Origin: Frateuria terrea
Lineage (GTDB): Bacteria > Pseudomonadota > Gammaproteobacteria > Xanthomonadales > Rhodanobacteraceae
Direction: 5' to 3'
Assembly (NCBI RefSeq): GCF_900115705.1
Contig: NZ_FOXL01000004.1
Coordinates: forward strand, 1-64,000
DNA length: 64,000 bases
Positions 10,529-63,260 of the stretch are shown in pieces. The first letter of the stretch is position 1. Each line of letters begins with the position of its first letter. The notes beneath the pieces are model-generated. The model saw only the letters and a program-made list of their open reading frames with translations, was not told the origin of the DNA and made no database searches. The position numbers and the translations under genes were made by a program.

Positions 10529-10542
10529 TTGACCTTGGTCAA
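10529..10542 (+). promoter_or_regulatory. FNR-type box upstream of L,D-transpeptidase
   Basis: TTGACCTTGGTCAA, an exact TTGAY-N4-RTCAA match. A CACGAT hexamer begins 21 nt downstream (10564). Transcription predicted from this geometry would start near 10576, inside the annotated gene, arguing for a later start codon. Confidence 0.7.
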
Positions 10543-10560
10543 CGGGGAGACGGCCCCGTC

Positions 10561-11595
10561 ATGCACGATGACACCGGGTCACACGCGAGATCGCTCGTGG
10601 ACTGTGTCGATAGCACCGCAGCCGGGCTTGGGCCGCGCCATGTGCCTGCTCGCCATGGCTTGCTGCTGGCGCTCGTGAGCCTGCTCGCGCTTGCGGGCCG
10701 ATCCGCCGCAGGCGTGCCCGGGGACAAATCGTTCTGGCGGCCCGAGCTCGCGCCGAGCGGTCCCATGGTGATGCTGGTCAGCCTCGACGAGCAGCGCATC
10801 TATGTCTACCGCAATGGGGTCGCCATCGGCGCCAGCCGCATCAGTACCGGCCGTCGTGGGCACGAAACACCCACGGGCGTTTACACGATCCTCCAAAAGG
10901 AGCGCGAGCACCGTTCCAATCTCTACGACAACGCCTCCATGCCGTTCATGCAGCGGCTGACCTGGGATGGGCTTGCGCTGCATGCAGGCGTGCTTCCAGG
11001 CCATCCAGCGTCGCACGGTTGTATCCGCTTGCCGCCGGCGTTTGCCGAGCGGCTGTTCGTGATCAGCCCCCGTGGGACCGTGGTGGTGGTTGCCGACCAG
11101 CGCGTCGCACCCCCGCAGATCAACCACCCGGCGGCGATCGCACCGCTCGGGTTGGAGGGCACCGGCCTGGCAAACGACGGGCGGGTGCCCTGGCCGGCGG
11201 ATGATGGTGGGCCGTTGAGCGTGGTGGCGAGCATCCATGATCGCGCTCTGTATGTCCTCCAGTCGGGACGGCTTGTCGCGAGCAGCCCAATAAGCGTGCC
11301 TGCGGGTTTTACTACCGGCGGCATGCTGCTGTACGTGCGACGCGCCGGGCCCCAGGGGGCGCCGGAGGAGGGCGGCGGGCTCTGGTCGGCTTACCGGATT
11401 CTCGGCAAGGGGCCGGCGCCTGCACCGCGCGAGCTGGCCCGTGCGCTCAAGGTGCCGGACGCGTTCGGTGCACAGCTTCGCCAGCGCATCAGCGTAGGCA
11501 CTACTGTGCTGGTCACCGACCTCCCCGCACGGGGTGGTCAGCCGGTACCTTACGGCACCCTGCTCGAGGCATTGGAAACGCCCGCGGCGCGCTAG
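10561..11595 (+). CDS. L,D-transpeptidase (YkuD domain)
   Basis: An exported peptidoglycan-modifying enzyme of up to 344 residues. A signal peptide (LLLALVSLLALAG) is followed by a YkuD domain with the catalytic HPASHGCIRL motif (His, then Ser-His-Gly-Cys). YkuD enzymes make 3-3 crosslinks or attach envelope proteins to peptidoglycan. The region after the domain resembles a second, degenerate repeat (LSVVASIHDRALYVLQSGRL) without the catalytic Cys. The ATG at 10561 gives a long pre-signal extension; GTG at 10597 or 10642 would give a normal signal peptide and agree better with the FNR-type promoter. Confidence 0.88.
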   Translation: MHDDTGSHARSLVDCVDSTAAGLGPRHVPARHGLLLALVSLLALAGRSAAGVPGDKSFWRPELAPSGPMVMLVSLDEQRIYVYRNGVAIGASRISTGRRGHETPTGVYTILQKEREHRSNLYDNASMPFMQRLTWDGLALHAGVLPGHPASHGCIRLPPAFAERLFVISPRGTVVVVADQRVAPPQINHPAAIAPLGLEGTGLANDGRVPWPADDGGPLSVVASIHDRALYVLQSGRLVASSPISVPAGFTTGGMLLYVRRAGPQGAPEEGGGLWSAYRILGKGPAPAPRELARALKVPDAFGAQLRQRISVGTTVLVTDLPARGGQPVPYGTLLEALETPAAR

Positions 11596-11634
11596 CGATT
11601 AATTAAGGGCACGTGGGGCACTCTTGGGCGTGTT

Positions 11635-12345
11635 TTGTCCCCCCACTTCAGGCGGTTGCCCTTGCCGTTCCGATACCTGCTTCCCCTCGTGTTGCTGTTG
11701 CCAGCGGCCGCTGCCGCAACCGATACCGTTTCCAATCCACTTGCCCAGGCCTTGAGCCGCGCGGCGCCCGCGGCCAACCCCAAGGTCCTGGCCCTGGCCA
11801 CCCGGGCGCTCGCCTGCGTGCAGCGAAGCATGCCCGCGCAGACGCTCAGCGTGATCGACTATTCGTTGCCGTCCACCACGCCACGGCTGTGGGTGTTTGG
11901 CCTCGGGCCGCACCCGCATCTGTTGTTCCACGAACTGGTCGCGCACGGGCGCAACAGCGGCGACAACCTGGCCGACCGGTTCTCCAACCAGCCAGGCAGC
12001 CTGATGTCGAGCCTGGGCACGTTCGTGACGGATGGCACCTACACCGGCCACAACGGCTATTCGTTGCGCCTCAAGGGCATCGACGGGAATTTCAACGACC
12101 AGGCCGAAAGCCGCGCGATCGTGATCCATGGCGCCCACTACGTCAGCGAAGCGTTTGCCCGCAGCCAGGGCCGGTTGGGCCGCAGCTGGGGGTGTCCGGC
12201 GGTGCGCGCGGGTGTCGCGCACAAGCTGATCGACGCCATCGCCGCCCATTCGGTGGTGTTCGCTTACTACCCCGATCCGCGCTGGCTGCAGGGCTCGCGC
12301 GTGCTGGGTGATTGCGGGGGCAACGAAGTGCTGTCCTCGCGCTGA
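11635..12345 (+). CDS. murein L,D-transpeptidase catalytic-domain protein (YkuD_2)
   Basis: A 236-residue secreted protein with signal sequence (YLLPLVLLLPAAAAA). It carries the YkuD_2 motifs RAIVIHGAHYVS and GRSWGCPAV, the latter with the likely catalytic Cys. The start appears to be TTG (11635, or 11656 with AGGCGG just upstream). It lies 39 bp after the first transpeptidase and is probably cotranscribed. Its 3' end overlaps the convergent acetate kinase gene by 79 bp. Confidence 0.82.
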   Translation: MSPHFRRLPLPFRYLLPLVLLLPAAAAATDTVSNPLAQALSRAAPAANPKVLALATRALACVQRSMPAQTLSVIDYSLPSTTPRLWVFGLGPHPHLLFHELVAHGRNSGDNLADRFSNQPGSLMSSLGTFVTDGTYTGHNGYSLRLKGIDGNFNDQAESRAIVIHGAHYVSEAFARSQGRLGRSWGCPAVRAGVAHKLIDAIAAHSVVFAYYPDPRWLQGSRVLGDCGGNEVLSSR

Positions 12346-13526
12346 GCCTCCGCGTCGGTGAGCAGGTCGTGCACGTGGCGGCAGATCTGCCGCTCTTCTT
12401 CGGTGGGTATCACGCGCACGTCGCAGGCGGCGCCATCCATGCCGATCCGTAGCCCACCGGCCCGGTTGCGCGCAGGATCCAGCCGGATGCCCGCCCATGA
12501 CAGACCATCGCAGATGTCGGCGCGCGCCTGCGCATCGTGTTCGCCGATGCCCCCGGTGAAGACGAGCGCGTCGATGCCTTGAAGCACGGCGGCCATCGCC
12601 GCGATCTGCTTGCGTACCGACAGCACGAACATCGCGATGGCCAGCCGCGCGAACGGGTCCGTGCGCTCTACCTTCCTTAGCCGGCGCAGGTCGCCGCTGA
12701 CGCCGGAAACCCCTAGCAGGCCGGAACGGTGATCCACCAGGCGCTCGATCGCGCGCGCGTCCATGCCTTTTTCACGGGCGAGCCAGGCCAGTACGCCTGG
12801 GTCCAGGTCGCCGCTGCGCGTGGCCATCATCACACCGCCACTGGGCGTCATGCCCATGCTGGTATCCATGGACCGGCCCTTGCGCACGGCAGTGACGCTG
12901 GCGCCGCTGCCCAGGTGGGCGATCACCAGCCGTGCAGGGGCCTGCGGCCATTGCGCCAGGATCGATGCGCAGGACAGGCCGTGGAAACCGTAGCGCTGCA
13001 CTCCGGCAGCCTGCAGTGCGCGATCCACCGGCAGGGTGCGCGCTTCGTCGGGCAGCGCAGCATGGAAAGCGGTATCCAGGCAAGCGACCTGCGGAAGTGC
13101 CGGAAACCGTCTCTGCGCGGCACGGACCACGGCCAGCGCCGCTGGTACGTGCAATGGCGCGAACGCGCTGGCCGCCTCCAGTTGCGCCATGACCGTGGCG
13201 TCGATGCGCGCATGCGCGCGCAACTGCGCACCGCCATGCACGATGCGGTGGCCAATGGCGTCCGGAGCAGGCACGTCCATGCCGTCCAGGACGCGGGCGA
13301 TGCGCGAAAAGGCCTGCACGCCGTCGGCCATCGGCACGGTCTCCTCGTGCAGGGTGTCGCCGCCATGGCCGTCGCGCACGCGCAGCAGCCCGGCAGAGCT
13401 TCCGATCGCCTGGGCTTCGCCGGCGACGCGCGGTGCCGCCTCGCAACCGCGCGCACTGAACAGGCCGAACTTGAGCGACGAGGAGCCACTGTTGATCGCC
13501 AGCACGTGGAAGCCTGATCGGCGCAT
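12267..13526 (-). CDS. ackA: acetate kinase
   Basis: About 419 residues; converts acetyl phosphate plus ADP to acetate plus ATP. Visible are the N-terminal phosphate-binding motif (LAINSGSSSLKFGLF), IGHRIVHGG, RYGFHGLS, HLGSGASVTAV, and the C-terminal FTGGIGEHDAQARADIC. The last 30 or so residues exceed the usual end of the family and cause the overlap with the convergent transpeptidase. The ATG is 2 bp after the phosphoketolase stop, so the two are translationally linked. Together they form a short route from pentose or hexose phosphate to ATP without respiration. Confidence 0.94.
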   Translation of the reverse strand: MRRSGFHVLAINSGSSSLKFGLFSARGCEAAPRVAGEAQAIGSSAGLLRVRDGHGGDTLHEETVPMADGVQAFSRIARVLDGMDVPAPDAIGHRIVHGGAQLRAHARIDATVMAQLEAASAFAPLHVPAALAVVRAAQRRFPALPQVACLDTAFHAALPDEARTLPVDRALQAAGVQRYGFHGLSCASILAQWPQAPARLVIAHLGSGASVTAVRKGRSMDTSMGMTPSGGVMMATRSGDLDPGVLAWLAREKGMDARAIERLVDHRSGLLGVSGVSGDLRRLRKVERTDPFARLAIAMFVLSVRKQIAAMAAVLQGIDALVFTGGIGEHDAQARADICDGLSWAGIRLDPARNRAGGLRIGMDGAACDVRVIPTEEERQICRHVHDLLTDAEAQREDSTSLPPQSPSTREPCSQRGSG

Positions 13527-13528
13527 GG

Positions 13529-15937
13529 TCACCCCATCGTCCAGCGCCACTGGGCGACTTCCGGCAGGTCCTCGCCGTGTTCGCTGATGTAGAGCCGGTG
13601 GCGCTCCATCGTCGCCCAGTAGCGGTCGGTCGCATCGGACGCGAGAGCCGACAGGCGCGGCACCCGCAGGATCGCGTCCAGCGCCAGCTGGTAACGGTCC
13701 AGGTTGTTCATCACCGTCATGTCGAATGGGGTGGTCGTGGTGCCTTCCTCCCTGTAGCCGCGCACGTGGAAGTTGTCGTGGTTGTGGCGGCGGTAGGCGA
13801 GGCGATGGATCAAACCGGGATAGCCGTGGAAGGCGAAGATCACCGGCTTGTCGCGGGTGAACAACTCATCGAAGTCGACGTCGCTCAGCGCGTGCGGATG
13901 TTCGCCGGGCGGCTGCAGCACCATCAGGTCGACCACGTTGACCACACGCACGCGCAGGTCCGGGGCGTATTCGCGCAGCAGGGTCACCGCGGCGAGCGTC
14001 TCCAAGGTCGGCACGTCACCGGCGCAGGCCATCACCACCTCGGGATCGCGCCCTTCGTCGGTGCTCGCCCATGTCCAGACTCCCGCACCGGTGCTGCAGT
14101 GGCGCGCGGCCGCGTCGATGTCCAGCCACTGCCACTCGGGCTGCTTGCCGGCGACGATTACGTTGACGTAGTTGCGGCTGCGCAGGCAGTGGTCGGCCAC
14201 TGAAAGCAGGCAATTGGCGTCCGGCGGCAGGTAGATGCGCACGACGTCGGCCTTCTTGTTGGCAACGTGGTCGAGGAAGCCCGGATCCTGGTGCGAGAAG
14301 CCGTTGTGGTCCTGGCGCCACACGTGGGAGCTCAGCAGGTAGTTGAGCGAAGCGATCGGCGCACGCCAGGGGATGTGCCGGGTGGTCTTCAACCATTTCG
14401 CATGCTGGTTGAACATCGAGTCGATGATGTGGATGAACGCCTCGTAGCACGAGAACAGGCCATGCCGGCCGGTCAGCAGGTAGCCCTCCAGCCAGCCCTG
14501 GCAGAGGTGCTCGCTCAGTACTTCCATGACGCGTCCCTGCGGTGACAGGTGTTCGTCGACCGGCTCGATGGTCGCCATCCACGCCTTGGAGGTCACCTCG
14601 AACACGTCCTGCAGCCGGTTCGAGGCCGTTTCGTCGGGTCCGAACAGGCGGAAGTTGCCGGCCTGGGCGTTGAGTCGCATGACCTCGCGCAGGTAACGGC
14701 CAAGCACGCGGGTGGACTCGACCTCCAGCCCGCCGGGCGCGGCCAGCCGGACCGCATGGTCGCGGAAGTGGGGCAGGGTGAGCGGCTGCAGCAACACGCC
14801 GCCGTTGGCGTGCGGGTTGGCGCCCATGCGCCGGCGGCCGGTGGGCGCAAGCTCGGCCAGTTCGGGGCGAAGCCGCCCGTCTGCGTCGAACAGCTCGTGC
14901 GGGCGGTAGCTCAGCAGCCAGTCTTCAAGCAGTCGGACGTGGGCGGGGTCGTCGAAATCCTTGAGCGGTACCTGGTGGGCGCGCCAGGTGCCTTCCACCG
15001 GCAGGCCATCGACCACCTTCGGACCGGTCCAGCCCTTGGGCGTGCGAAACACGATCATGGGCCAGCGCGCTCGAGCGGGCGCCTGGCCGTCCGTCGCGTG
15101 GCGGGCAGCCTGCTGGATCCCGTGGATGCGCGCCAGCGCCTTATCCAATGCTGCCGCGAGCTGCCGGTGCACCTGAGCAGGATCGTCGCCTTCGACGAAC
15201 AGCGGCTCGTACCCGTAACCGCGGAACAGTTCGCCCAGCTCGTCAGGAGTGATCCTGGCCAGCAGCGTGGGGTTGGCGATCTTGTAGCCGTTGAGATGGA
15301 GGATCGGCAGCACCGCACCGTCGCGGGCGGGGTTAAGGAATTTGTTCGAGTGCCAGCTGGTGGCGAGCGCACCGGTTTCCGCCTCGCCGTCGCCGACGAT
15401 GCAGGCGACGATCAGGTCCGGGTTGTCGAACGCGGCGCCGTAGGCATGGGCCAGCGAATAGCCCAGTTCGCCGCCCTCGTGGATCGAGCCGGGTGTTTCC
15501 GGCGCCACGTGGCTGGGCACGCCATAGGGCCAGGAAAACTGGCGGAACAGCCGCCGCATGCCGTGCCTGTCGCGCTCGATGTCCGGATACACCTCGGTGT
15601 AGGAGCCTTCCAGGTAAGCCTGCGCGACCAGGCCCGGGCCGCCGTGCCCCGGGCCGATCACGTAGATCATGTCCAGGTCGTGCGCCTTGATCAGCCGGTT
15701 CAGGTGGACGTAGATGAAGTTGAGGCCGGTCGTCGTGCCCCAGTGGCCGAGCAGGCGGGGCTTGATATGGCGCCGCTCCAGCGGGACCTCCAGCAAGGGG
15801 TTGTCCTGCAGGTAGATCTGGCCGACGGTCAGGTAATTGGCTGCACGCCAATAGGCATCCATGCGCCAAAGCAGCTCCTCGGAAAGCGGCATGGACGTCG
15901 CAGGCTTCGCCGCTCGCACTGGGTCATCGGTAAACAT
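13529..15937 (-). CDS. xfp: xylulose-5-phosphate/fructose-6-phosphate phosphoketolase
   Basis: An 802-residue thiamine-diphosphate enzyme that splits xylulose 5-phosphate (or fructose 6-phosphate) with phosphate into acetyl phosphate and an aldose phosphate. Family signatures: [43 protein letters not shown], and the ThDP motif [20 protein letters not shown]; the C-terminal half has [18 protein letters not shown]. The start ATG at 15937 has GGAG upstream and gives the usual length. It sits between a universal stress protein and ackA in one operon behind an FNR-type box, suggesting fermentative energy production. Confidence 0.96.
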
Positions 15938-15984
15938 GGGCGTGGCTCCGGGTACAGGCGTTTCGGTGAGATGGACGCGACGGC

Positions 15985-16785
15985 TCAGTGCGCCAGCAGC
16001 AACGGCAGGTGCGTGTGCGAGAGCACGTGGTGGGTCGTGCCACCGAGGACCAGCTCGCTGATGCGCGAGCGCCCCCATGCGCCCATGACCAGCAGGTCCG
16101 CCCGCATCGTCTCTGCCTCGCGCAGCAGGTGTGCGCCGGCATCCTCCCCGGGATGGAACGGGTGCCGCTGCTGCACGCTCACGCCCTGGCGGGCAAGCCA
16201 TTCGCCTACCGCAAGCGTGGGTGGCCCGAAGCCGGGAAGGGTCTCGCGCCAACCATCCAGCAGGCGCACTTCGGAGGCGCTGCGCAGGAGAGGCAATGCG
16301 GCACGGATGGCCTCGGTGGACTCGCCCGAACCGTTCCAAGCCAGCAGCACGCGGGTGGGTGCGCCGCGCACTTCGTAGGTTTCCGGCACCAGCAGCATGG
16401 GCGCGCCGCCGGCAAAAAGGGTGCGGGTGACGTTGTCCCAGCCGATCGGAAGATCCTGCCGGCCAGGTGCGCTGCACACCAGCAGGTCGGCCATCCGCGA
16501 ACGCGTCGCCAGCACGGTGACGTAGAGCCCCCGGTAGACCTCCCAGGAGCCCTGCACGTTCGACCGCCGGCTCAGCTCGTCCCACCACGGGGCGCGTTGC
16601 CGTGCCGAGTCCTCCTCGGCTTCCAGGATCGCCAGCGCATCGGGAATCGCCGTCACCGATGGGATCTGGGCAACGATGTGCACGCCTGCGGCGAACGCCT
16701 GCTGCTGCCGCGCAACGGCCAGGCCAAGCTGAATGGCGGGTACGTCTTCGCGCATGTGGTCGACGTTGATGATCATCTCGTACAT
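15985..16785 (-). CDS. tandem-domain universal stress protein (USP 1)
   Basis: 266 residues with two UspA-like halves. The C-terminal half keeps RVLLAWNGS and the [16 protein letters not shown] loop, close to the nucleotide-binding G-2x-G-9x-G pattern; the N-terminal half is diverged. It is the first gene of the USP-phosphoketolase-ackA operon. The predicted FNR-type promoter would give a leader of roughly 17 nt before the ATG at 16785. Tandem USPs are typical of anaerobic-survival regulons; the exact biochemical role is unknown. Confidence 0.9.
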
Positions 16786-16835: not shown

Positions 16836-16849
16836 TTGATCGAGGTCAA
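16836..16849 (-). promoter_or_regulatory. FNR-type box for the USP-phosphoketolase-ackA operon
   Basis: TTGATCGAGGTCAA, exact match. On the minus strand GAGCAT (16814-16809) follows after 21 nt as a plausible -10. Confidence 0.75.
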
Positions 16850-16864: not shown

Positions 16865-18151
16865 TCAGGCGAATGCCATCGCGGCCACGACGCCTGCCAT
16901 GGCTGCCGTGGCGGCCCATCCGAGCAGGCGCAACCACGACCGCACTGCCAGCGCGCCCATGACCTCCCGGCGGGTAGCGAGCCACATGGCGGCCGCCATC
17001 AGGGGCACCGAAATGACACCGTTCAGCACGGCCGCCCAGAACAGCATGTGGATCGGCCTCGTCGGAGTGAGGCTCAACGCGGCGCCGCCCAACGTCGCCA
17101 GGATGATCAGACCGTAGAACAGCTTCGCTTCCCCGAAGCGCCGGTCCAGCCCGCTGCTCCAATGGAACACCTCAGCCAGGGCATACGCTCCCGAGCCGGC
17201 AAGCACGGGTATGGCCAGCAGGCCGGTGCCCACGATGCCCATGGCGAACAGCATGCCGGCGAATCGGCCGGCCAGAGGCCGCAGCGCCCGCGCGGCATCG
17301 GCCGCGTCCTCGATCGCGCGCACGCCATGGCCGTGCAGCACCACCGCCGCCGCGAGGACCACGAAGAAACCGATCGCATTGGAATAGATCATGCCGACGA
17401 CGGTATCGAGGTCGATCCGGCGCAATGCGCCGGGCGCGGCGGCCGGCTGCAGCAGCAGCGGCTCTTCCTGGGCCTGCTCTTCTTCCTCCACCTCCTGCGC
17501 GGCCTGCCAGAAAAACATGTACGGGCTGATCGTGGTGCCGAACATCGCCACCACGGTGAGCAGATAGTCGCGGTCGCGGCGCCAGACCGGCACCCACAGG
17601 CGGTGCAACGCTTCTGCCCACGGCACGTGTACGACCAGGGTGGTCAACACATAGGCCAGAAGGCTCAAGGTGAGCACCTTCAACAGCCGGGCGTAGCGCG
17701 CGAACGGAATGGCCACTTCCAGCACTGCCGAAAGTGCCGCAAACAGCACGACAAAGAGCGAGGCGCTCCCGCCCAGCAGCATGTGCGTCGCCTCGCCCAT
17801 GGCCCCCAGGTCGGCAGCCAGGTTGAACACGTTCGCCGCCAGCAGCAATGCCACCAGCGCGAGCGTGAGCGCGCGTGGAAAACACCGCGTCATGTTGGCG
17901 GCCAGGCCACGCCCGGTAACGCGCCCGATGTGGGCGCACACGGCCTGGATGCCGATCATCAGCGGAAGCGTGAACCAGACGGTCCATAGCGTGGCCAGTC
18001 CGAATCGTGCGCCTGCCTGGGAATAAGTGGCGATTCCACTCGGATCGTCGTCGGCCGCACCCGTGATCAGGCCGGCGCCAAGCCGGATGGCCGATCCGCG
18101 CAGGCGGCGGACACGCAGCGCAACGCCATGTCGGAACAGCCGGATCGCCAT
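16865..18151 (-). CDS. NRAMP-like divalent metal transporter with non-canonical metal site
   Basis: 428 residues, about 11 membrane helices, SLC11/NRAMP fold. In helix 1 the canonical DPGN motif is DPSG (DDDPSGIATYSQAGA); in helix 6 the canonical MPH motif is SPY (TTISPYMFFWQA), so the metal-coordinating Asn and Met are both replaced. Loss of the Met is known to change selectivity away from soft transition metals, as in Mg-transporting relatives; Mg or Mn import is thus an inference. An acidic loop (EVEEEEQAQEE) follows helix 6. ATG 18151 has GGAG 7 nt upstream. It is divergent from the SDR operon and shares its FNR-type box. Confidence 0.85.
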   Translation of the reverse strand: MAIRLFRHGVALRVRRLRGSAIRLGAGLITGAADDDPSGIATYSQAGARFGLATLWTVWFTLPLMIGIQAVCAHIGRVTGRGLAANMTRCFPRALTLALVALLLAANVFNLAADLGAMGEATHMLLGGSASLFVVLFAALSAVLEVAIPFARYARLLKVLTLSLLAYVLTTLVVHVPWAEALHRLWVPVWRRDRDYLLTVVAMFGTTISPYMFFWQAAQEVEEEEQAQEEPLLLQPAAAPGALRRIDLDTVVGMIYSNAIGFFVVLAAAVVLHGHGVRAIEDAADAARALRPLAGRFAGMLFAMGIVGTGLLAIPVLAGSGAYALAEVFHWSSGLDRRFGEAKLFYGLIILATLGGAALSLTPTRPIHMLFWAAVLNGVISVPLMAAAMWLATRREVMGALAVRSWLRLLGWAATAAMAGVVAAMAFA

Positions 18152-19049: not shown

Positions 19050-19060
19050 AGGAGACGCGT

Positions 19061-22716: not shown

Positions 22717-22725
22717 GGTGTCGCC

Positions 22726-23610: not shown

Positions 23611-23649
23611 TGGCGACCGGCAGGCGCTCGGTCCCCACAGGAGGCATCC

Positions 23650-32210: not shown

Positions 32211-32214
32211 GGCG

Positions 32215-54534: not shown

Positions 54535-56342
54535 GCTGCACGGACGGGCGGCGGCGATCGGCCGGCCGGCTGGTCCGTTGCCGTACGGATGGCCGAACCG
54601 CGATGCTGGAGATAGGCCTCCGCCGCGTACCGGCGCATCATGCGGTGGGCGTTGAAGTAGCTGGCGAGCTTGCTCACCGACTGCTTCATCATCCCGATCC
54701 AGCCGGCGCGGTTGCGGTGGTAGAGCGGCAGCACGACCTGCTCCAGGCAGTCGTAGAGCTTCCGGCTCGCCGCACCGTCGTCGTGCTCCTCGCCCAGCGA
54801 CCAGCCGGTGACGCCATCGATGCAGCCCTCGACCCACCACCCGTCCAGCACGCTCAGGTTGAGCACGCCGTTGGCGGCGGCCTTCATGCCGCTGGTGCCG
54901 GAGGCCTCCAGCGGCGGCAGCGGCGTGTTGAGCCAGAGGTCGCAACCGGCCACCAGCGCCCGCGCGGCGGCAAGGTCGTAGTCGGGCAGGAACACCAGGC
55001 GGATCTGCGGGGCCAGTTCGCGGGACAGCGCGTGCAACTGCCGCACCAGCTGCTTGCCCGCCTCGTCGTGCGGGTGCGCCTTGCCTGCCATGACGACCTG
55101 GAAGGGCGCCTTCGCATGGATCGCGCGCAGGCGCAGCGTGTCGGTGAACAGCAGCATCGGCCGCTTGTAGGCCGTCATGCGGCGGGCGAAGCCGATGATC
55201 GGCAGCTGCGTATCCAGCGCCACACCGGTGCGGTCGGCGACGAACGCGACCAGGTCGCCGCGCGCCTGCGCGTGGGCCTGCCATACGTCGCCATCAGGCA
55301 ACTGGTCGAACCGCGCCAGCGTCTCCGGATCGTGCACCCAGCAGTTGGAGCAGCGGTGGAAGAGGGTGGCAAATGCCGGATGCACCCAGTCGGGCAGGTA
55401 GACGCCATTGGTCACCGCGCGCACGTCATAGCCGGGGAACAGGCGCGTGGTCACCTCCGCGTGGCGCACGGCGACGCCATTGACGAAGCCGGCCAGGTTG
55501 AGCGCCAGCCGGGTCAGGTTGAGCGCGTCCGGGCCGGCCAGCAGGCGCACCTGCCCGCTGTCGACATAGCCCGGCAGCAGGCGCTCGTAGAGGTCGTATG
55601 CAAAGCGGTCGTGGCCCGCATCGACCGGCGTGTGCGTGGTGAATACGCAGGAGCGGCGTACCGGACCGGCATCGAAGCCCAGCTCGCCGGCGCCCACGGT
55701 GTCGGCCGGCAGCGGATAGCGGCGCAGGAGTTCCAGTCCGAGCAACGCCGCATGGCCCTCGTTCAGATGGTAGGTGGTGATCTCGAAGCCGAGCGCGTGC
55801 AGGACGCGCACGCCGGCGATGCCCAGCACGATTTCCTGCCTGAGCCGGTAGCTGGCGTCGCCCCCATACAGCTCGCTGGTGATCGCGCGATCCTCCGGGC
55901 TGTTCTCGGGCAGGTCGGTGTCCAGCAGCAGCACGGGCACCGGTTGCCCGAGACGGCCGTGCAGCCGGTACAGCCACGGGCGCACCCAGACTTCCCGGCA
56001 CTCGATGAGTACGGCCACCTTGGCGCGCAGCGGATGGACGAAGGCTTCGGGCACCCACGGGTCGGCCGATTCGAACTGGTTGCCCTGCGCGTCGAACGAC
56101 TGGCGCAGGTAGCCCTGCCTGGACATGAGGGTGACGAACACCATCGGCAGTTCCAGGTCCGCGGCCGCGCGCGCGGTGTCGCCCGCCAGCACGCCCAGGC
56201 CACCGGCATAGGTGTGCATGCGCGGCTCGAGCGCGATCTCCATCGAGAAGTAGGCAATGTGCGTGCGCGGCAGGTAAGGGCCGATGGCCGCCACGAACGC
56301 TGGCGCGGCCGTGGCGGTTGCGACCGGCGCGTCGGGGCTCAC
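54531..56342 (-). CDS. alpha-glucan (glycogen) phosphorylase family protein
   Basis: 603 residues. Pyridoxal-phosphate enzyme releasing glucose 1-phosphate from alpha-glucans. N-terminus [27 protein letters not shown]-terminal [28 protein letters not shown] with the cofactor Lys. Shorter than GlgP (about 800), as in the compact alpha-glucan phosphorylase subfamily. It overlaps the CBS 2 stop by 4 bp, so AMP/ATP sensing and glucan breakdown are coupled. Confidence 0.93.
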
Positions 56343-56788
56343 GGACGCGCTTCCATTTCACGCACCTGCCCGCGCACCAGCGCGCGGCTCATCTCCTGCA
56401 GGTAGACACCCAGCGCGCCGTAGATGTCGTCCAGGCTCAGCAGGCCGCACAGGCCGCCCTTGGCGTTGAGCACCGGCAGGCGGCGCACGCCGTGCGTACG
56501 CATGCGCGCCACCGCGTCGAGCAGCAGCTCGTCGTGCGAGCAGGTCGCCGGGTCGCGGGTCATCACCTCATCGACCCGCAACTGCGCGCAAGGCACTTCG
56601 GGCGCGACCACCTGTATGACGATGTCGCGGTCGGTCAGGACGCCGACGGGGATGCGCTCGCCATTGGGCTGCTCGACCACCACGAGCATGCCCACGTGCC
56701 GTTGGCGCATCAATCGCGCGGCCTCGGTCACGGAAGCGGCAGGGCTGACCGAAACTACCTGGTGGGTGCATAGCTTGTGGACTTGCAT
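56339..56788 (-). CDS. CBS-domain-pair protein (CBS 2)
   Basis: 149 residues with two CBS motifs (ASVTEAARLMRQRHVGMLVVV and LLDAVARMRTHGVRRLPVL), each followed by GVLTDRDI or GLLSLDDI. Close in design to CBS 1. First gene of the CBS-phosphorylase operon behind an FNR-type box. Confidence 0.92.
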   Translation of the reverse strand: MQVHKLCTHQVVSVSPAASVTEAARLMRQRHVGMLVVVEQPNGERIPVGVLTDRDIVIQVVAPEVPCAQLRVDEVMTRDPATCSHDELLLDAVARMRTHGVRRLPVLNAKGGLCGLLSLDDIYGALGVYLQEMSRALVRGQVREMEARP

Positions 56789-56841: not shown

Positions 56842-56855
56842 TTGACCCTGGTCAA
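56842..56855 (-). promoter_or_regulatory. FNR-type box for CBS 2-glucan phosphorylase
   Basis: TTGACCCTGGTCAA, exact; CAGGCT (56819-56814) after 22 nt. Confidence 0.72.
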
Positions 56856-57022: not shown

Positions 57023-57400
57023 ATGTATGCCCGGTCCCCACTGCTTTGCGCGCGAATCCTGCTGGCCGTATGTGCGGGAACCGGCGCTGCGTGCGGAATG
57101 ACACGGGACGTGTCGCAGGCAGGCGCGCCGACCGGCCATTGGACGAAGTCCATCGACAAGGAACTGAGGGGAGCGAAGTACCTCAAGCAAGCGCGGATCC
57201 AGCCCGAGCAGGCGCGGGCGCTGGCGCTCAGGGTGTTCGACGGCGACATCATCTATCAGCGGATCGAGCCCAAGCCGGGCGGCAGTGGGCTGCGCTACTC
57301 GTTCATCATCAGGAACCGCCAGATGGAAGAGCGCCAGGTGGAGATCGACGCCAACGACGGCGCCACGTTGGAAAACGCCCAGACCGACAGATTTCGCTGA
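57023..57400 (+). CDS. small exported PepSY-like protein
   Basis: 125 residues. N-terminal hydrophobic stretch (LLCARILLAVCAGTGAACG) looks like a signal peptide, perhaps with a lipobox-like Cys. The mature part has ARIQPEQARALALRVFDGDI and a second strand set ending VEIDANDGATLE, typical of a PepSY domain (peptidase inhibitor or metal-related). AGGATGGA precedes the ATG. It precedes the ACP-ligase-PlsC gene by 77 bp. Confidence 0.78.
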   Translation: MYARSPLLCARILLAVCAGTGAACGMTRDVSQAGAPTGHWTKSIDKELRGAKYLKQARIQPEQARALALRVFDGDIIYQRIEPKPGGSGLRYSFIIRNRQMEERQVEIDANDGATLENAQTDRFR

Positions 57401-57477
57401 CCGGCCCCGGCGCCGGGCGCGCCCGCGTCTTCGCGCGAGTACGCGCCCCGTCGTGCCCGCCATGAGAGGCAAGCCGG

Positions 57478-60285
57478 ATGAACGACGCATCGATTCCCGG
57501 TAGCGACGTCCTGCTCGATGAAATCGGCAGGTTGCTGCGCGAACTGCACCCCAGGGACGCGAACATGCCAGCCGTATGGATGGGTGCGCGGCTGGACCGC
57601 GATCTGGGCCTGGACAGCCTGTCGCGGATGGAACTGCTGATGCGGCTGGAGAAGCGCCTGCACGTCTCGGTGGCCGAAACACGCGCCGTCGAGGCACGCA
57701 CGCCTGCCGACCTGCTGCGCGTCCTGGCGGCGTCGCCCTCGTGGGCGGCCAGCCATCCCGGCCCTGCCGCAGCGCTGGCGAGCCAGGTCGTGCTGGCAAC
57801 GCCCGAAGACGCGCGGACGCTGCCAGAGGTGCTGGCCTGGCATGCGCAGCGGCATCCGGACCGGGTGCACGTGCACTTCACCGGCGGTGAAGCCGACGGG
57901 ATCGAGCTGACCTACGCAGGGCTCTACGCCGCGGCCAGCGAGGTGGCGGGCGGCCTGCAGCGGGAAGGCCTGCGTGATGGCGAACCGGTGGCGCTGATGT
58001 TCCCCACGCACCCGGACCTGCTGATCGCCTTTTTCGCGGTGATGCTTGCCGGCGGCGTACCCGTGCCGTTGTACCCGCCGCTGCGGCCTGGCGAGCTTGG
58101 CGACTACTGGGGCCGCCAGACCGGCATCCTGCGCAATTGCGGGGCGCGGTTGATGCTCGTCGCGCCGGCGCTTTTCGCGCACCGCCATGCGATCGGGACC
58201 CTGGCCGGCGGCGTGGAACGGCTGCTTGCGGTCGCCTCGTTGCGTGGGCACGAGCCCCTGTCGGAACCCGCGCCGCGGCGCGGCGACCACCTGGCGATGC
58301 TGCAGTACACCTCCGGCAGCACCGCCGATCCGAAGGGCGTGATGCTCAGCCACGACAACCTGCTCGCCAATATCCGCACCATGGGGCGCCAGGTGGGCGC
58401 ATCGGCCAGGGACGTCTTCGTCAGCTGGTTGCCGCTCTACCATGACATGGGGCTGATCGGCGCGTGGCTGGGCAGCCTGTATTTCGGCATTCCGCTGGTC
58501 CTGATGCCGCCGCAGGCGTTCCTGCTGCACCCCGAACAGTGGCTGCGCGCGATCGACCGCTTCGGCGCCACCCTGTCGGCGGCTCCGAACTTTGCCTACG
58601 AGCTGTGCCTGCACCGGATCGAGGATCACGCGCTCGACGACCTGGATCTGCACCGGCTGCGCATCTGCTTCTGCGGTGCCGAGCCGGTGTTCCCCGACAC
58701 GCTGGAGCGCTTCACTGCACGCTTCGCCCGAGCCGGGCTCGCGCCCGCGGCCCTGCTTCCCGTCTACGGGCTGGCCGAAAACAGCCTCGGCCTGACCTTT
58801 CCGCCTGCGGGGCGGGGCATCCGCGTGTTGCGCGTGCGGCAGGACCGCTTCCTTCGCCACGGCGAGGCGGTGGTGGCAGATGACGAGGAGACACCGTCAC
58901 TGCGATTTGTCTCCTGCGGCGTCCCCTTGCCGGCACACGAAGTGCGCATCGTCGACGATTACGACCACGAATTGTCCGAAGGCCGGCAGGGGCGCATCCA
59001 GTTTCGCGGACCCTCCGCAACGGCAGGCTATTTCCACCAGCCGCAGCTCACGCGGGAGCTGTTCCACGATGGCTGGCTGGATACCGGCGACCTGGGCTTC
59101 GTGCGGCAGGGCGAGCTGTACCTTACCGGTCGCGCCAAGGACCTGGTCATCCGCGCCGGCCAGCATCTGCATCCCCAGGGCATCGAGCAGGCGGTCGGCG
59201 AGGTGCCGGGCATACGGCGTGGCCGCGTAGCGGCCTTCGGCACCCGCAAACAAGGCACGGAACGCCTGGTTGTCGTCGCCGAAACGCGGGTGACCGAGGC
59301 GGCACGGCGGCAGCAACTCCAGCGTGCCGTCAACGCGGCCGTCCACGCCTGCACGGGAGCACCGGCCGACGAGGTCGTGCTTGCCGCGCCGGGCGCCATA
59401 CTGAAGACATCGAGCGGCAAACTGCGCCGGTCCGCGTGCCGCACCGCGTTCGAAGGCGGCCGGCTCGATACGCCGGACCGGTGGCGCCTGCTGGCCGTGG
59501 TGGTGCGATCCCAATGGGATCGGCTGCGGCGCGTGACCGGCCACGCCGGCATGCTCGCCTACGCCGCTTACGCATGGCTGCTGCTGGGCCTGGCGGTCGT
59601 CCCCATGCTGGCCTGGCTTGCCTTGCCGATGCCCGCGGCATCGCGGTGGTGGGCCGCACGCCGGCTGCTGGGGGCGGTGGCAGCCGCCGCAGGCATCCGG
59701 GTTCGAATGCACCTGGTCGAAGCCTTGCCGGAGGGTCCATGCATCTTCGTCAGCAACCACGCCAGCTATGCCGACGCGCTGGCGCTGGTTTGCGCGCTCC
59801 CCAGACCCGTGGCGTTCGTCGCCAAACGGGAACTGGCGTCGCTGCCGCTGGTGGGCTGGATGCTGCGCCGGCTCGGCGTGGTGTTCGTGGCGCGCTCCGA
59901 TCCCCACACGCACGCACGAGCCCTGCAGCAGGTCAGCCGCGGCACGGGCGACGTGCTCTTCTTTCCCGAAGGCACCTTCCGCAGCATGCCGGGACTGGTG
60001 CACTTCCGCCTGGGCGCCTTCGTCGCGGCCGTCGAGGCGGGCATGCCGGTGATTCCCGTCGCCTTGCGCGGAACCCGCGCCGTGCTGCGCGACGACGAAT
60101 GGCTGCCGCATCCGGGCACGGTCGATGTCACGATCGCCGCGGCGATACATCCCCGCCGCAGCCCCGACACGTGGCCGGAGGCATTGCGGCTTGCGGCCGA
60201 AACGCGAGCGCCCATCCTCGAGCATTGTGGCGAGCCGGACGCCGACAGCGAGCGACCGGACATGCCCGATGCGCAGGCGCGCTAG
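57478..60285 (+). CDS. ACP-fatty acyl-AMP ligase-PlsC acyltransferase fusion
   Basis: 935 residues, three domains. Residues 1-85: acyl carrier domain with phosphopantetheine Ser47 (GLDSLSRMEL). About 100-655: fatty acyl-AMP ligase with YTSGSTADPKGVMLSH and the hallmark VSWLPLYHDMGLIG. About 690-900: 1-acylglycerol-phosphate acyltransferase (PlsC) with NHASYAD (H-x4-D) and FPEGTFRS. Membrane-associating hydrophobic segment near 700-730. It should activate a fatty acid, load its own carrier and transfer the chain to a lipid. The order is reverse of Aas, which is acyltransferase then ligase. Confidence 0.92.
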   Translation: MNDASIPGSDVLLDEIGRLLRELHPRDANMPAVWMGARLDRDLGLDSLSRMELLMRLEKRLHVSVAETRAVEARTPADLLRVLAASPSWAASHPGPAAALASQVVLATPEDARTLPEVLAWHAQRHPDRVHVHFTGGEADGIELTYAGLYAAASEVAGGLQREGLRDGEPVALMFPTHPDLLIAFFAVMLAGGVPVPLYPPLRPGELGDYWGRQTGILRNCGARLMLVAPALFAHRHAIGTLAGGVERLLAVASLRGHEPLSEPAPRRGDHLAMLQYTSGSTADPKGVMLSHDNLLANIRTMGRQVGASARDVFVSWLPLYHDMGLIGAWLGSLYFGIPLVLMPPQAFLLHPEQWLRAIDRFGATLSAAPNFAYELCLHRIEDHALDDLDLHRLRICFCGAEPVFPDTLERFTARFARAGLAPAALLPVYGLAENSLGLTFPPAGRGIRVLRVRQDRFLRHGEAVVADDEETPSLRFVSCGVPLPAHEVRIVDDYDHELSEGRQGRIQFRGPSATAGYFHQPQLTRELFHDGWLDTGDLGFVRQGELYLTGRAKDLVIRAGQHLHPQGIEQAVGEVPGIRRGRVAAFGTRKQGTERLVVVAETRVTEAARRQQLQRAVNAAVHACTGAPADEVVLAAPGAILKTSSGKLRRSACRTAFEGGRLDTPDRWRLLAVVVRSQWDRLRRVTGHAGMLAYAAYAWLLLGLAVVPMLAWLALPMPAASRWWAARRLLGAVAAAAGIRVRMHLVEALPEGPCIFVSNHASYADALALVCALPRPVAFVAKRELASLPLVGWMLRRLGVVFVARSDPHTHARALQQVSRGTGDVLFFPEGTFRSMPGLVHFRLGAFVAAVEAGMPVIPVALRGTRAVLRDDEWLPHPGTVDVTIAAAIHPRRSPDTWPEALRLAAETRAPILEHCGEPDADSERPDMPDAQAR

Positions 60286-62060
60286 GCGCCCATGGTGGTT
60301 GCCAGGCGGGCCCTCAATGCGGGCAACGGCAGCGTGTTGATCACGTCTTTGGCCTCGATCCAGCCGCGGCGCAGCTGACCGATGCCGAAGCGCAGCGCGG
60401 CCAAGCCGCCGGCGTCGTGCGCGTCGCTGCCGATGGCCAGCGGCACGCCGGCGGCCTTCGCCAGCCGGCAATGCACGTCGTCCAGATCCAGCCGGTCCGG
60501 GTGCGCGTTGGCCTCCAGAAAGCAGCCGCGTTCACGTGCGTGGCGCACGATGCGCTCGATGTCCACAGCGTAGGGGGCACGTTCCTCGATCAGGCGCCCG
60601 GTGGGGTGGGCCAGGATGCTGAAGCAGCGATGATCCATCGCACGCAGCAGGCGCGTGATCTGGCGCTCCCGCGAGAGGTCGAAGTGGCTGTGTACCGCGC
60701 CGACCACCAGGTCCAGGCGGGCCAGCAGGTCGTCCGGGAGATCCAGGCGGCCATCCTCGAGGATGTCCACTTCGATGCCCTTGAGCAGCACCGGTGCGAC
60801 ATGGGTTTCGTTGAAGCGGTCGATCGCCTCGATCTGTGCCAGCAACCGGCGGCGGTCCAGGCCACGCGCGACGGCGAGACCGTGCGAATGGTCGGTGATC
60901 GCCAGGTACTCAAGCCCCGCGGCGGCGGCGGCGGCGGCGCGCGCCATCGTTTCCAGGTCGGCACGACCGTCGCTGGCCTCGGTGTGGCTGTGCAGGTCGC
61001 CGCGCACGTCCTTCAGCTCGATCAGCGAGGGCAGGGTTCCGGCGGCGGCAGCTTCGATCTCGCCGAGGTTCTCGCGCAGTTCCGGCGGGATGGGTGGCAG
61101 GTCGATGCACGCATAGACTGAGGCTTCGGTAAGCCCCGCAATGCGACGGCTGCCGTGGTAGACACCGTACTCGTTGACCTTCATGCCGCGCTTGTGCGCC
61201 AGCCCGCGCAGCGCGAGGTTGTGCGCCTTCGAGCCGGTGAAGTAGACCAGGGCGGCGCCGAGGCTCGCCGGGCGCACCACCCGCAGATCCACCTGCAGCC
61301 CGCTGCGCAACACGACGCTTGACCGGGTGGCTCCCTGCGCGAGGACGCGGTGCACCATCGGGTAGGAGAGAAAGCGCCTGGACAGTGCGCTTCCATGGCC
61401 GGTCGCCACGAGCACGTCCACGTCGCCGACCGTTTCGCGCCAGCGGCGCAGGCTGCCGGCAAGCACCACCCGGGCTGGCTCCGGCGCACCCTGCACGTAG
61501 GAAGCCAGCGCCTCGGCCTGCTGCAGGGCGTCTGAAAGCTTCCAGCGATGGACCGTTCCGAGGGACTGAACGGCCGCCTCCAGAAGGTGTCGCTCGGTGT
61601 CCTTGCCGAAACCCTTGATGGTCTGGATGCGCCCGGCACGTGCGGCACGCAACAGCCCCGCGACCGAAGTGATGCCCAGCTCGTCGTGCAACCGCTGGGC
61701 ACGTCGCGGGCCGAGCCCCGGCAATCTGAGCAGGGCGGTCAGGCCTCTGGGGTGGGTCCGCCGCAGCTCGCGCAGCAGATGGCACGAACCCGTCGCCAGG
61801 ATTTCCTCGATCTTGCCTGCGAGGTCATTGCCTATGCCCGGCAGGTCGGCCAACCGATGCGCTGGATCGCGCCACGTAACCAGTGGTTGCGGCCAGCCGC
61901 CCACGGTGCGTGCAGCGTTGCGGTAGGCGCGCACGCGGAACGGATTGGCGCCGTCCAGTTCCAGCCAGTCGGCGATCTCATCGAAGACTCCGCCGACTTC
62001 GGCATTGCTTGCAGCGACCCCGCGGGACGCTGTGGGCTGGAGGGCTAGCGTGTGTGCCAT
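60282..62060 (-). CDS. polX: DNA polymerase X-family / PHP-domain protein
   Basis: 592 residues from ATG 62060; the predicted transcript starts nearby, ruling out 62093. Helix-hairpin-helix repeats (LPGIGNDLAGKIEEI; LPGLGPRRAQRL), nucleotidyltransferase domain with GSLRRWRETVGDVDVLV and third Asp in VDLRVV, and a C-terminal PHP domain (DLHSHTEASDGR; AITDHSHG; ILAHPTG; GSDAHD) expected to give 3'-5' exonuclease activity. PolX repairs gaps in non-replicating DNA. It is downstream of an FNR-type box. Confidence 0.92.
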   Translation of the reverse strand: MAHTLALQPTASRGVAASNAEVGGVFDEIADWLELDGANPFRVRAYRNAARTVGGWPQPLVTWRDPAHRLADLPGIGNDLAGKIEEILATGSCHLLRELRRTHPRGLTALLRLPGLGPRRAQRLHDELGITSVAGLLRAARAGRIQTIKGFGKDTERHLLEAAVQSLGTVHRWKLSDALQQAEALASYVQGAPEPARVVLAGSLRRWRETVGDVDVLVATGHGSALSRRFLSYPMVHRVLAQGATRSSVVLRSGLQVDLRVVRPASLGAALVYFTGSKAHNLALRGLAHKRGMKVNEYGVYHGSRRIAGLTEASVYACIDLPPIPPELRENLGEIEAAAAGTLPSLIELKDVRGDLHSHTEASDGRADLETMARAAAAAAAGLEYLAITDHSHGLAVARGLDRRRLLAQIEAIDRFNETHVAPVLLKGIEVDILEDGRLDLPDDLLARLDLVVGAVHSHFDLSRERQITRLLRAMDHRCFSILAHPTGRLIEERAPYAVDIERIVRHARERGCFLEANAHPDRLDLDDVHCRLAKAAGVPLAIGSDAHDAGGLAALRFGIGQLRRGWIEAKDVINTLPLPALRARLATTMGA

Positions 62061-62110: not shown

Positions 62111-62124
62111 TTGACGTGGGTCAA
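62111..62124 (-). promoter_or_regulatory. FNR-type box for polX
   Basis: TTGACGTGGGTCAA, exact; CAGCGT (62089-62084) after 21 nt. The box contains the stop codon of the upstream gene. Confidence 0.72.
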
Positions 62125-63152
62125 GTCTGCCCGTGCGGGTCGCGCAAGGCATGGCGCGCGAGCCACAGCCCCGGCAGCATCGGCAGCCAGGTGGTGCAGC
62201 CGCGCAACAGCAAGGTTCCCGCCAGCGCGCCTTCGATGGGCAGCCCTTGCGTCGAAAGTGCGGCAACGCAGGCCGCTTCGAAGGTACCCAGGCCCATCGG
62301 GATCGGACTCACCGTCGCCACCATCATGGCCAGCAGGAAACTGGGATAGACCACGCCGTAGGAGACCTGCAGCCCAAGCGCGTGGAGCATGGTCCACAGT
62401 GTCGCCGCATCCGCGGCAATGACGAGGAGGTTGAGCGCAGCCGTGGCGGCGAGCAGCCGCTTGCGATGCAGCAGGTGAGCGACCGGGGCTTCCGCGGCGG
62501 CCTCCGCCAGCGAGGTTACGCCCGGCAGGCGCTCCATCCAGCGGGGTGCCCGGCGGCCGAACCGATGCAACACGAACAGGGCCAACGGTACCGACACGGC
62601 CACCAAGACGAAAAGGCCGGTCACGGTTGCCATCCAGGGACGTGCCTCGTGGTGAAGCCACAACAGCCCCATGCCCGTCACTGCGGAAAGCAGGTAGGCA
62701 CCGTAGAAGCCGATGAAGTTGGTCATCAGCGCCGCCATGCATGCCGGCCGCGGTACGCGCCGGCGGGCCAGTACGCCGACCAGGAAGGCCGTGCCGCCGA
62801 TACCGCCCGTCGGCACGGACTGGTCCACGAACAGCTTGGCCACGGAAAGCCCGATGAGCGAGCTCCAGGGGCGCTGTGCACCGGCACGATCCAGCCCCAG
62901 CCACCAGGCCGTGGCGACGCAGGCATAGGTGGTGATCTGCAGGAACACGGCCAGGGCAAGCCAGGCCGGTGCGAGCGAGCGGAGCAGGTCGAGGAAGCGT
63001 TCCACCTCGACGCGGCGCAGGACCACGCCGGCCAGTGCTGCCAGAGCCAGCACGCCCAGCAACCAGCCGGTCCATTGCAGCGTGGCCGCCGGTCGCTCGC
63101 CATTCGTCGGCGGCGAGGGCCATTGGCGTGATGCAGGCAGGTGATGGTCCAT
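62121..63152 (-). CDS. lysylphosphatidylglycerol synthase-type TM protein (UPF0104)
   Basis: 343 residues, seven to eight hydrophobic helices. Family motifs VDQSVPTGGIGGTAFLV and ATVSPIPMGLGTFEAACVAAL identify the UPF0104/AglD2 flippase-like domain, without the catalytic lysyltransferase part. Likely lipid or isoprenoid-linked glycolipid transfer. No convincing ribosome-binding site. Its position next to the PlsC fusion suggests joint envelope-lipid changes. Confidence 0.88.
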   Translation of the reverse strand: MDHHLPASRQWPSPPTNGERPAATLQWTGWLLGVLALAALAGVVLRRVEVERFLDLLRSLAPAWLALAVFLQITTYACVATAWWLGLDRAGAQRPWSSLIGLSVAKLFVDQSVPTGGIGGTAFLVGVLARRRVPRPACMAALMTNFIGFYGAYLLSAVTGMGLLWLHHEARPWMATVTGLFVLVAVSVPLALFVLHRFGRRAPRWMERLPGVTSLAEAAAEAPVAHLLHRKRLLAATAALNLLVIAADAATLWTMLHALGLQVSYGVVYPSFLLAMMVATVSPIPMGLGTFEAACVAALSTQGLPIEGALAGTLLLRGCTTWLPMLPGLWLARHALRDPHGQT

Positions 63153-63210
63153 GGAACGACCGGCGCAGGCGGGCAGGCGCCCATGCCACCACGACCGTCG
63201 CCCCTGTAGC

Positions 63211-63224
63211 TTGAGTTGCATCAA
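63211..63224 (-). promoter_or_regulatory. degenerate FNR-type box, UPF0104 side
   Basis: TTGAGTTGCATCAA, one mismatch. No clear -10 at the usual distance. Confidence 0.45.
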
Positions 63225-63246
63225 AGCAGGGTGGCATCGGCCGGAA

Positions 63247-63260
63247 TTGACCGTGGTCAA
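63247..63260 (+). promoter_or_regulatory. FNR-type box for the MgtA-like ATPase
   Basis: TTGACCGTGGTCAA, exact; CATGGT (63282-63287) after 21 nt. This places transcription start close to the ATG at 63294. Confidence 0.72.

Follow-up and report, generated by a model that had tools for sequence, protein, structure and literature searches.

Most exact FNR-type boxes of Frateuria terrea lie in one 57-kb block that resembles the Burkholderia lxa locus and probably forms a low-oxygen regulon

The regulons of E. coli FNR and Pseudomonas ANR are scattered over the chromosome, and the mycobacterial DosR regulator differs from FNR in protein family and in DNA site. The low-oxygen-activated (lxa) locus of Burkholderia has another arrangement. 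The lxa locus of B. cenocepacia (BCAM0275A–BCAM0323) is a contiguous set of ~50 genes that includes six universal stress protein (USP) genes and is induced by low oxygen (PMC4981469, PMC6127331, PMC9104464). The published table of lxa and its neighbours lists USPs, a heat-shock protein, acetate kinase, alcohol dehydrogenases, a metallo-beta-lactamase superfamily protein, HlyD, ABC transporters, a cell-division-related metallopeptidase, a cation ATPase, two-component genes and a CRP-family regulator (PMC4981469). An FNR-box-like motif is reported to accompany many microaerobically induced genes of B. cenocepacia (PMC4505428), USP genes of P. aeruginosa are under ANR control (PMC8509486), and the DosR dormancy regulon of mycobacteria, which has 48 genes with 10 USPs and alpha-crystallin, serves hypoxia survival (PMC6127331). 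Here, we describe a contiguous block of genes with FNR-type boxes in a 64-kb window of the soil-type gammaproteobacterium Frateuria terrea, the window being the whole stretch of DNA analysed (positions 1 to 64,000 of contig NZ_FOXL01000004.1).

The block extends from the end of a tRNA-Ser (TGA) gene (10304–10393, + strand, found by ARAGORN) to approximately position 67435 of the same contig, a distance of 57 kb with 48 called genes; gene calls are from our own codon model rather than from curated annotation, and the right edge is defined by synteny and by where the last box-headed gene lies. An earlier sequence-only reading of the window had proposed a contiguous block of about 50 kb; its contiguity was confirmed, whereas its length was too short. 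A Pfam scan covering 46 of the 48 genes identified eight USPs, phosphoketolase, acetate kinase, Nramp, SDR, a zinc-type alcohol dehydrogenase, a cation P-type ATPase, nitroreductase, GNAT, a beta-CASP metallo-hydrolase, a Crp/Fnr regulator, a PAS kinase with a response regulator, Host_attach/baeRF, two CBS proteins, a thymidine/AMP phosphorylase and PRPP-synthetase-type pair, ArsR, a pyridine-nucleotide-disulphide oxidoreductase with RND efflux, OsmC, dodecin, HlyD/ABC export, Hsp20, FtsH, glucan phosphorylase, an ACP–adenylate–acyltransferase fusion, PolX and an LPG-synthase-type protein.

Judged by gene family against the published table, rather than by sequence, lxa is the closest known system. 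Both are contiguous blocks of ~50 genes with several USPs (six in lxa, eight here) and a Crp/Fnr regulator inside, and both have a heat-shock protein, acetate kinase, a Zn alcohol dehydrogenase, a metallo-beta-lactamase superfamily protein, a cation ATPase, two-component genes and ABC transporter genes; HlyD–ABC export belongs to the extended form of the locus that B. contaminans and B. multivorans have, the cell-division-type metallopeptidase there has FtsH as its counterpart here, and the presence of lxa is patchy among strains. The mix of genes, which the sequence-only reading had singled out, is therefore less surprising than claimed, given the table. By contrast, phosphoketolase, the thymidine/AMP phosphorylase and PRPP-synthetase-type pair, PolX, Nramp and the RND pump are additions of the block described here, PHB (polyhydroxybutyrate) and phosphofructokinase genes are absent among its 46 scanned genes, and its regulator lacks cluster cysteines, whereas BCAM0287 of lxa is among the FNR proteins that retain them (PMC4505428). 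An oxygen response is reported for lxa and is predicted from sequence here. We conclude that this kind of locus is already known, and that the block is a version of it found in another family, with different cargo and a regulator that lacks the cluster. In box sequence and class II spacing the block agrees with the FNR/ANR regulons, the difference being that 17 of 25 exact sites are in one block; the likeness to the DosR regulon lies in the 48 genes of both, the multiple USPs, alpha-crystallin and the role in hypoxia survival that is predicted here. The titles and abstracts of the best-ranked literature matches do not describe the block in Frateuria or Rhodanobacter, and the terms FNR and universal stress never occur in the main text of a comparative Rhodanobacter paper (term search of PMC8809349).

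We observed 16 exact matches to TTGAYN4RTCAA in the window, all of them between positions 10529 and 63260, in agreement with the earlier count; in 100 dinucleotide shuffles, the motif occurred 0.05 times on average and never more than once. Allowing up to one mismatch yielded 24 sites, as compared to a chance mean of 1.75. The eight sites added in this way include six in intergenic DNA (25738, 27384, 27431, 39240, 56922 and 63211), one more than the five that had been reported, and two inside genes (22378 and 24655) that look like chance matches. The housekeeping stretch (1–10393) contains no exact or one-mismatch match, as had been stated.

A scan of the whole genome (3.84 Mb) bore out the concentration of the motif in this block. 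There are 25 exact box places in the genome, versus two for a reversed-pattern control: 16 in the window, one just beyond it at C10:65919, and eight in the other 3.78 Mb, among which there is only one close pair, 3 kb apart on C8. Hence, 17 of 25 exact sites fall in 55.4 kb of block, or 1.4% of the genome, a density of 307 per Mb as compared to 2.1 per Mb for the rest of the genome (binomial P 5e-26). Intergenic DNA makes up just 9.1% of the block, yet all 17 exact boxes are outside genes, with three overlapping a gene end by 4 bases, consistent with the earlier description of boxes in short gaps before genes or operons. The motif is thus neither equally dense elsewhere nor placed at random with respect to coding DNA, and the clustering of FNR-type boxes in the block is real. 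One-mismatch sites on their own are weak evidence, because 236 sites with up to one mismatch (the 25 exact sites among them) are found genome-wide, versus 108 in the control. An unsupervised scan of the intergenic DNA of the block for any inverted dyad of 4+4 bases with a spacing of 0–16 returned TTGA-N6-TCAA as the top dyad, with 17 occurrences versus 0.009 expected. The consensus core of a Crp site is TGTGA rather than the TTGA of these boxes, and a Crp-type site was set aside.

We scored a transcription unit as box-headed if an exact or one-mismatch box lay within 300 bp, crediting a box between divergent genes to both. With limits of 60, 100, 150 and 200 bp for the gap between genes of a unit, 26 of 30, 26 of 28, 26 of 27 and 26 of 26 units were box-headed, covering 43, 46, 47 and 48 of the 48 genes, respectively. 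Under the 100-bp rule, 24 of the 26 headed units have an exact box and two have a one-mismatch box. In a control set of 100 genes there were five with an exact box and three with a one-mismatch box, a background that is overstated, since the set includes five loci chosen for holding a box.

The position of the boxes relative to promoter-like sequences was measured in six regions (this genome and those with our handles G012, G038, G053, G001 and G049), which together have 88 boxes; for 85 of these, a gene start is no more than 300 bp away. Of 123 gene-facing sides, 25 have a −10-like TANNNT sequence exactly 21 nt past the box, and no other offset between 8 and 39 has more than four, whereas none of the 53 sides that face no gene start has TANNNT at +21. 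With the relaxed pattern YANNNT there were 45 cases at +21 and 12 at +22. For the boxes of this genome alone, TANNNT was found at +21 on 6 of 50 sides and once at each of three other offsets (range 5–33). A stretch of Cupriavidus necator C39 plasmid p1, a megaplasmid, serves as an independent case: its five boxes have the element at +21 on 7 of 10 sides, and at other offsets on two. On a large minority of gene-facing sides, the distance from the box centre to the first base of the −10-like hexamer is 28.5 nt. This placement supports class II activation, with the box centre predicted to be ~40.5–41.5 nt upstream of the start site; a class II reference promoter at −41.5 has been described (PMC4505428).

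For the 24 block genes that have an exact box, we also determined whether their orthologues in the other regions have one within 300 bp. The count is per gene, such that divergent genes can share one box. Among reciprocal-best orthologues, the box was present for 20 of 20 genes in G012, 13 of 13 in G038, 11 of 11 in G053 and 4 of 5 in Rhodanobacter lindaniclasticus (G001). The N4 centre varies freely among congeners, and TTGAY/RTCAA is constant. Congeners G067 and G081 (the latter 86% complete), in which neither the phosphorylase nor the phosphoketolase has a match, have six and two boxes, respectively, as compared to 22–37 in this genome (G000), G012, G038 and G053, which have these marker genes; in a search with the regulator encoded in the block, matches in G067 do not go beyond that of the host FNR (37%), and G081 has none at E 1e-30.

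Among 117 genomes of the family, those with the block regulator (n = 37) have a median of 23 boxes, versus 14 for those without (n = 80; P 1.5e-7), where presence requires at least 54% identity and the G066 copy (50%) and a second G057 copy (44%) are scored as absent. Similarly, the median is 23.5 boxes in 28 genomes with the phosphorylase at E <1e-100 and 14.5 in 82 genomes without it (Mann-Whitney 7e-6), with seven genomes that have weak matches set aside. The family-wide link of block markers to box number is real but loose. R. lindaniclasticus has a second cluster, with 10 exact boxes in 73 kb (C16:136–209 kb), and G049 has a rearranged block (C1:250–300 kb) with 16 boxes, plus narG/narH- and hemN-like genes, named by eye.

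The location of the block differs among relatives. In this genome, the block is flanked by the tRNA-Ser gene and by a core region. In G038 and G012 it is collinear, although some genes are absent and others are extra (32 and 42 reciprocal-best orthologues, respectively), and finishes in the same two genes, YkuD and tyrosinase-like, with its nearest edge ~112 kb (G038) or ~131 kb (G012) from serS and with box-bearing genes extending further. The serS–tRNA-Ser site of relatives holds other DNA, ~4 kb in G038 and ~11 kb in G053 and G067. By eye, bacteriophytochrome-like and response-regulator genes are at this site in relatives, and the site in G012 also has an element that looks integrase-bearing. 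The block is therefore adjacent to a tRNA gene and differently located in relatives; however, we found no exact repeat of at least 12 bp between 10281–10560 and 62–80 kb, and no integrase among the 46 scanned genes. Given the lack of attachment repeats, a simple integrase-type island is not claimed.

Related cargo is found on plasmids. The phosphorylase matches 170 plasmid records from many genera, all at <60% identity, eight of which were examined. The phosphorylase and PRPP-synthetase genes are on Sphingobium xenophagum pSH1, Sphingopyxis sp. DBS4 pDB-2 and Pseudorhizobium flavum plasmid 3, each of which differs from the block in having zero or one FNR box; phosphoketolase, acetate kinase, USPs, Zn alcohol dehydrogenase, P-type ATPase or FtsH are on at least one of the three, with USPs on two. 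In alphaproteobacterial plasmid stretches of 37–41 kb, there is one box in S. xenophagum, one in Pseudorhizobium and none in Sphingopyxis or Ruegeria. The stretches from Variovorax and Cupriavidus have five boxes each, all ten of them intergenic, and those from Acidovorax and Methylophaga have one each. Four of the five Cupriavidus boxes are within 300 bp of a called gene start; the Cupriavidus stretch is the FNR-wired megaplasmid stretch described above, where the gene table of the record shows no genes. A search of two alphaproteobacterial plasmids for a replacement dyad returned none that was convincing, the best pair having eight occurrences versus 0.66 expected among very many pairs. We consider alphaproteobacterial plasmids with similar cargo and few boxes to be the most interesting lead from this analysis.

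An HTH_Crp_2 search of the genome returned six proteins, four of them above the cut-off. A chromosomal FNR (C11:~41.5–42.2 kb) has the CX2CX5C triad, the central Cys and an ETVSR helix, and is thus a four-Cys FNR with the E..SR helix. Next to its gene are two others recognised by eye, one nnrS-like and one hemN-like, the latter with an exact box, and one of three COX1-type proteins in the genome, at C11:29383 and CcoN-like by eye, is 11 kb away. The Crp/Fnr-family regulator encoded in the block (29504–30169, + strand; hereafter, island regulator) is assigned by Pfam, a PDB search and alignment. It lacks the N-terminal Cys triad and the central Cys in G000, G012, G038 and G053, with Trp at the central position, and its best solved relatives are FNR-type regulators (E ~1e-36). 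Since the island regulator is without cluster cysteines, the oxygen sensor is probably the chromosomal four-Cys FNR rather than the island protein. An exact box lies ~120 nt upstream of the island-regulator gene in R. lindaniclasticus.

A working FNR-type regulon is by far the best reading of these data because of the promoter geometry and the conservation, which also uphold this part of the sequence-only reading. The sites, their placement, the promoter geometry, the conservation and the fact that relatives have the block elsewhere are observations; from them we infer the binding protein, oxygen as the signal (as opposed to nitric oxide (NO) or another redox cue) and a role in survival. Specifically, we consider it probable that the block is an FNR/ANR class II-activated low-oxygen (anoxia) survival regulon that is kept together as one relocatable unit. 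A fall in oxygen would lead the chromosomal FNR/ANR, which has the four cluster cysteines, to occupy the boxes and induce the USPs and the phosphoketolase–acetate kinase route, which would provide ATP from sugar phosphates. Glucan phosphorylase would be induced as well, together with proteases, chaperones, enzymes that maintain RNA and DNA, metal pumps and envelope pumps. The cysteine-less island regulator, itself a member of the regulon, probably recognises these boxes too and, like FixK, would amplify the response at a second level. Such a two-tier scheme, in which FNR senses oxygen and the island protein relays the signal, seems most likely.

Several observations weigh against this reading or parts of it. 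Four of the six regions used for promoter geometry are close relatives and hence non-independent. The distant family member G049 keeps an exact box at just three of eight genes, and only two of the five boxes in the Variovorax plasmid stretch have a called gene start within 300 bp. Of the 38 regulator copies in the family, 18 are within 40 kb of the other markers (phosphoketolase or phosphorylase), some copies being on short contigs. Box-rich genomes without the phosphorylase marker exist, with 33 boxes in G015 and 32 in G034, indicating that boxes are not confined to such blocks. The island regulator has Thr at the position of Ser-212 of E. coli FNR, and its binding to the boxes is putative. 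The block has a G+C content of 69.2%, similar to the right flank (69.1%; left flank, 67.2%), such that composition shows no sign of a recent foreign origin. Lastly, B. contaminans expresses lxa under normal aerobic conditions, and the authors suspect another role (PMC4981469); thus, even the closest relative serves more than anoxia alone, which slightly lowers our confidence in the low-oxygen reading.

A different division of labour, in which the boxes are mostly read by the cluster-less island regulator and the signal is NO, redox state or a metabolite rather than oxygen, is unlikely but deserves the most weight among the alternatives. The island regulator is retained within the block in three congeners with 88–90% identity and occurs in 37 of 117 family genomes, those with more boxes, and its recognition helix, HETVTR, retains the Glu and Arg of FNR. 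However, the genome also encodes the four-Cys FNR with a canonical helix, beside the hemN-like gene with an exact box, and the gene families of the block match those of the low-oxygen-induced lxa locus, as far as the published table goes.

DNR proteins recognise the same box type as FNR, and the nnrS-like NO-response gene (by eye) adjoins fnr, as might be expected if the block were a DNR-type, NO-responsive regulon for nitrosative stress. We consider this improbable: the island regulator matches FNR structures far better (E ~1e-36) than DNR (E 8.7e-6), nitrite and NO reductases are absent among the Pfam matches of the 46 scanned genes, and narG has no match in a genome-wide search, a search that did not extend to other denitrification genes. 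The presence of many boxes within one stretch could also reflect copies of a single spreading promoter cassette or repeat; this is very improbable, since the box flanks are dissimilar and it is the N4 centre, rather than TTGAY/RTCAA, that changes between congeners. Chance palindromes in a G+C-rich genome are ruled out by the shuffles, the reversed-pattern control, the intergenic placement and the +21 element.

Regulons are usually viewed as scattered genes that each acquire their own site; here, 17 of 25 exact FNR sites are in 1.4% of the DNA. Since the sites cluster in a block that is placed elsewhere in relatives, it becomes possible to test whether an entire regulon can spread in a single transfer or relocation. 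A tentative extension of the low-oxygen regulon, which we put at somewhat less than an even chance, is that the block moves as a pre-wired unit, with FNR class II promoters for almost all of its transcription units and its own cluster-less relay regulator, such that any FNR-bearing recipient would gain the response in one step, and that the related payloads without boxes on alphaproteobacterial plasmids are driven by another input. If so, the same cargo would have been rewired between regulators during transfer. The block also predicts how a bacterium without a NarG match may survive anoxia, and which uncharacterised proteins join that response. An example is the box-headed 360-amino-acid protein (50861–51943, + strand) that adjoins the ABC export operon and has no Pfam match, and for which no reciprocal-best orthologue was found in the five compared regions.

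The individual boxes and genes are arranged as follows; boxes are from the motif scan, supported by orthologue comparison other than at 18204, 25701, 27431 and 50794, and gene families are from Pfam unless stated otherwise. The left edge of the block, at the tRNA-Ser gene, coincides with a synteny break in relatives. The first box, TTGACCTTGGTCAA (10529–10542), precedes a YkuD L,D-transpeptidase gene (10660–11595) and is kept in G012, G038 and G053. Box TTGATCGAGGTCAA (16836–16849) heads a − strand operon (12267–16785) of USP (15985–16785), phosphoketolase (13529–15892) and acetate kinase (12267–13550) genes. Box TTGACCAGGGTCAA (18204–18217) lies between the divergent Nramp-type metal transporter gene (16865–18151, −) and the genes for SDR oxidoreductase, USP and cation P-type ATPase (18279–22062, +; the ATPase start is uncertain), and has TAGGCT 21 nt downstream on the + side. 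The first 4 bases of box TTGACAAGGATCAA (22059–22072) are in the end of the ATPase gene, and this box precedes an operon for GNAT acetyltransferase, USP and nitroreductase (22183–24237, +). A second copy of TTGACCAGGGTCAA (25701–25714) precedes the gene for the beta-CASP metallo-beta-lactamase-fold protein (24249–25643, −).

Two one-mismatch boxes follow: TTGACTTAGGTCAG (27384–27397), between divergent USP genes (26519–27322, −; 27518–28345, +), where one-mismatch boxes are kept in three congeners, and TTGACCTGCGTCAG (27431–27444), with TAGTGT 21 nt downstream. An alcohol dehydrogenase gene (28354–29337) completes this segment (26519–29337) before the island-regulator gene. A two-component pair (30177–32934, −) consists of a PAS histidine kinase (30177–32210) and a response regulator with a Trans_reg_C domain (32215–32934), and box TTGATCCGCGTCAA (33105–33118) lies between the response regulator gene and a USP gene (33178–33969, +). 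Box TTGATCCTGGTCAA (34511–34524) is divergent, between the gene for a Host_attach/baeRF family 12 protein (34027–34449, −) and those for a CBS protein, a thymidine/AMP phosphorylase-type enzyme and a PRPP synthetase-type enzyme (34635–37464, +). Box TTGACCGGGATCAA (38759–38772) precedes two USP genes (37461–38703, −), and the same sequence at 45981–45994, with TAGGGT 21 nt downstream, precedes genes for dodecin and a phosphoribosyltransferase–alpha/beta hydrolase fusion (46081–47712, +).

Box TTGATGCATGTCAA (50794–50807) is divergent between the genes for HlyD adaptor, FtsX/MacB permease and ABC ATPase (47709–50742, −) and the gene for the 360-amino-acid protein, and has TACGGT 21 nt downstream on the − side. 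Box TTGACGTCGATCAA (52000–52013), with TAGGGT 21 nt downstream, precedes the Hsp20 gene (52108–52551, +). Box TTGACGCAGGTCAA (54521–54534) precedes the gene for an FtsH-type protease (52613–54487, −), and its last 4 bases are in the end of the phosphorylase gene, which is part of a segment encoding glucan phosphorylase and a CBS protein (54531–56710, −). Box TTGACCCTGGTCAA (56842–56855) is accompanied by the one-mismatch box at 56922, with TAGCGT 21 nt downstream of the latter; genes for a PepSY-like protein, slightly below the Pfam cut-off, and an ACP–adenylate-forming–acyltransferase fusion (57098–60285, +) follow. Box TTGACGTGGGTCAA (62111–62124) precedes polX (polymerase beta-type plus PHP; 60282–62060, −), and its last 4 bases are in the end of the next gene, which encodes an LPG-synthase-type membrane protein (62121–63062, −). 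Box TTGACCGTGGTCAA (63247–63260) precedes a second P-type ATPase gene, named by eye (C10:63369–65828), that extends past the end of the window.

Finally, box TTGATCAGGGTCAA (39246–39259), with an overlapping one-mismatch box at 39240, lies between the gene for an ArsR-type repressor (38801–39130, −) and an operon (39315–45967, +) for a Pyr_redox_2 oxidoreductase (the SQR of the sequence-only reading), a YgaP-like transmembrane protein, DUF302, an HlyD-type adaptor, an RND pump and OsmC. An A+T-rich inverted sequence of the ATTAG/CTAAT type is located beside this box (39130–39315), and occurs at the same spot in G012, G038 and G053. It is probably an ArsR operator, which would place the oxidoreductase–RND operon under dual control.

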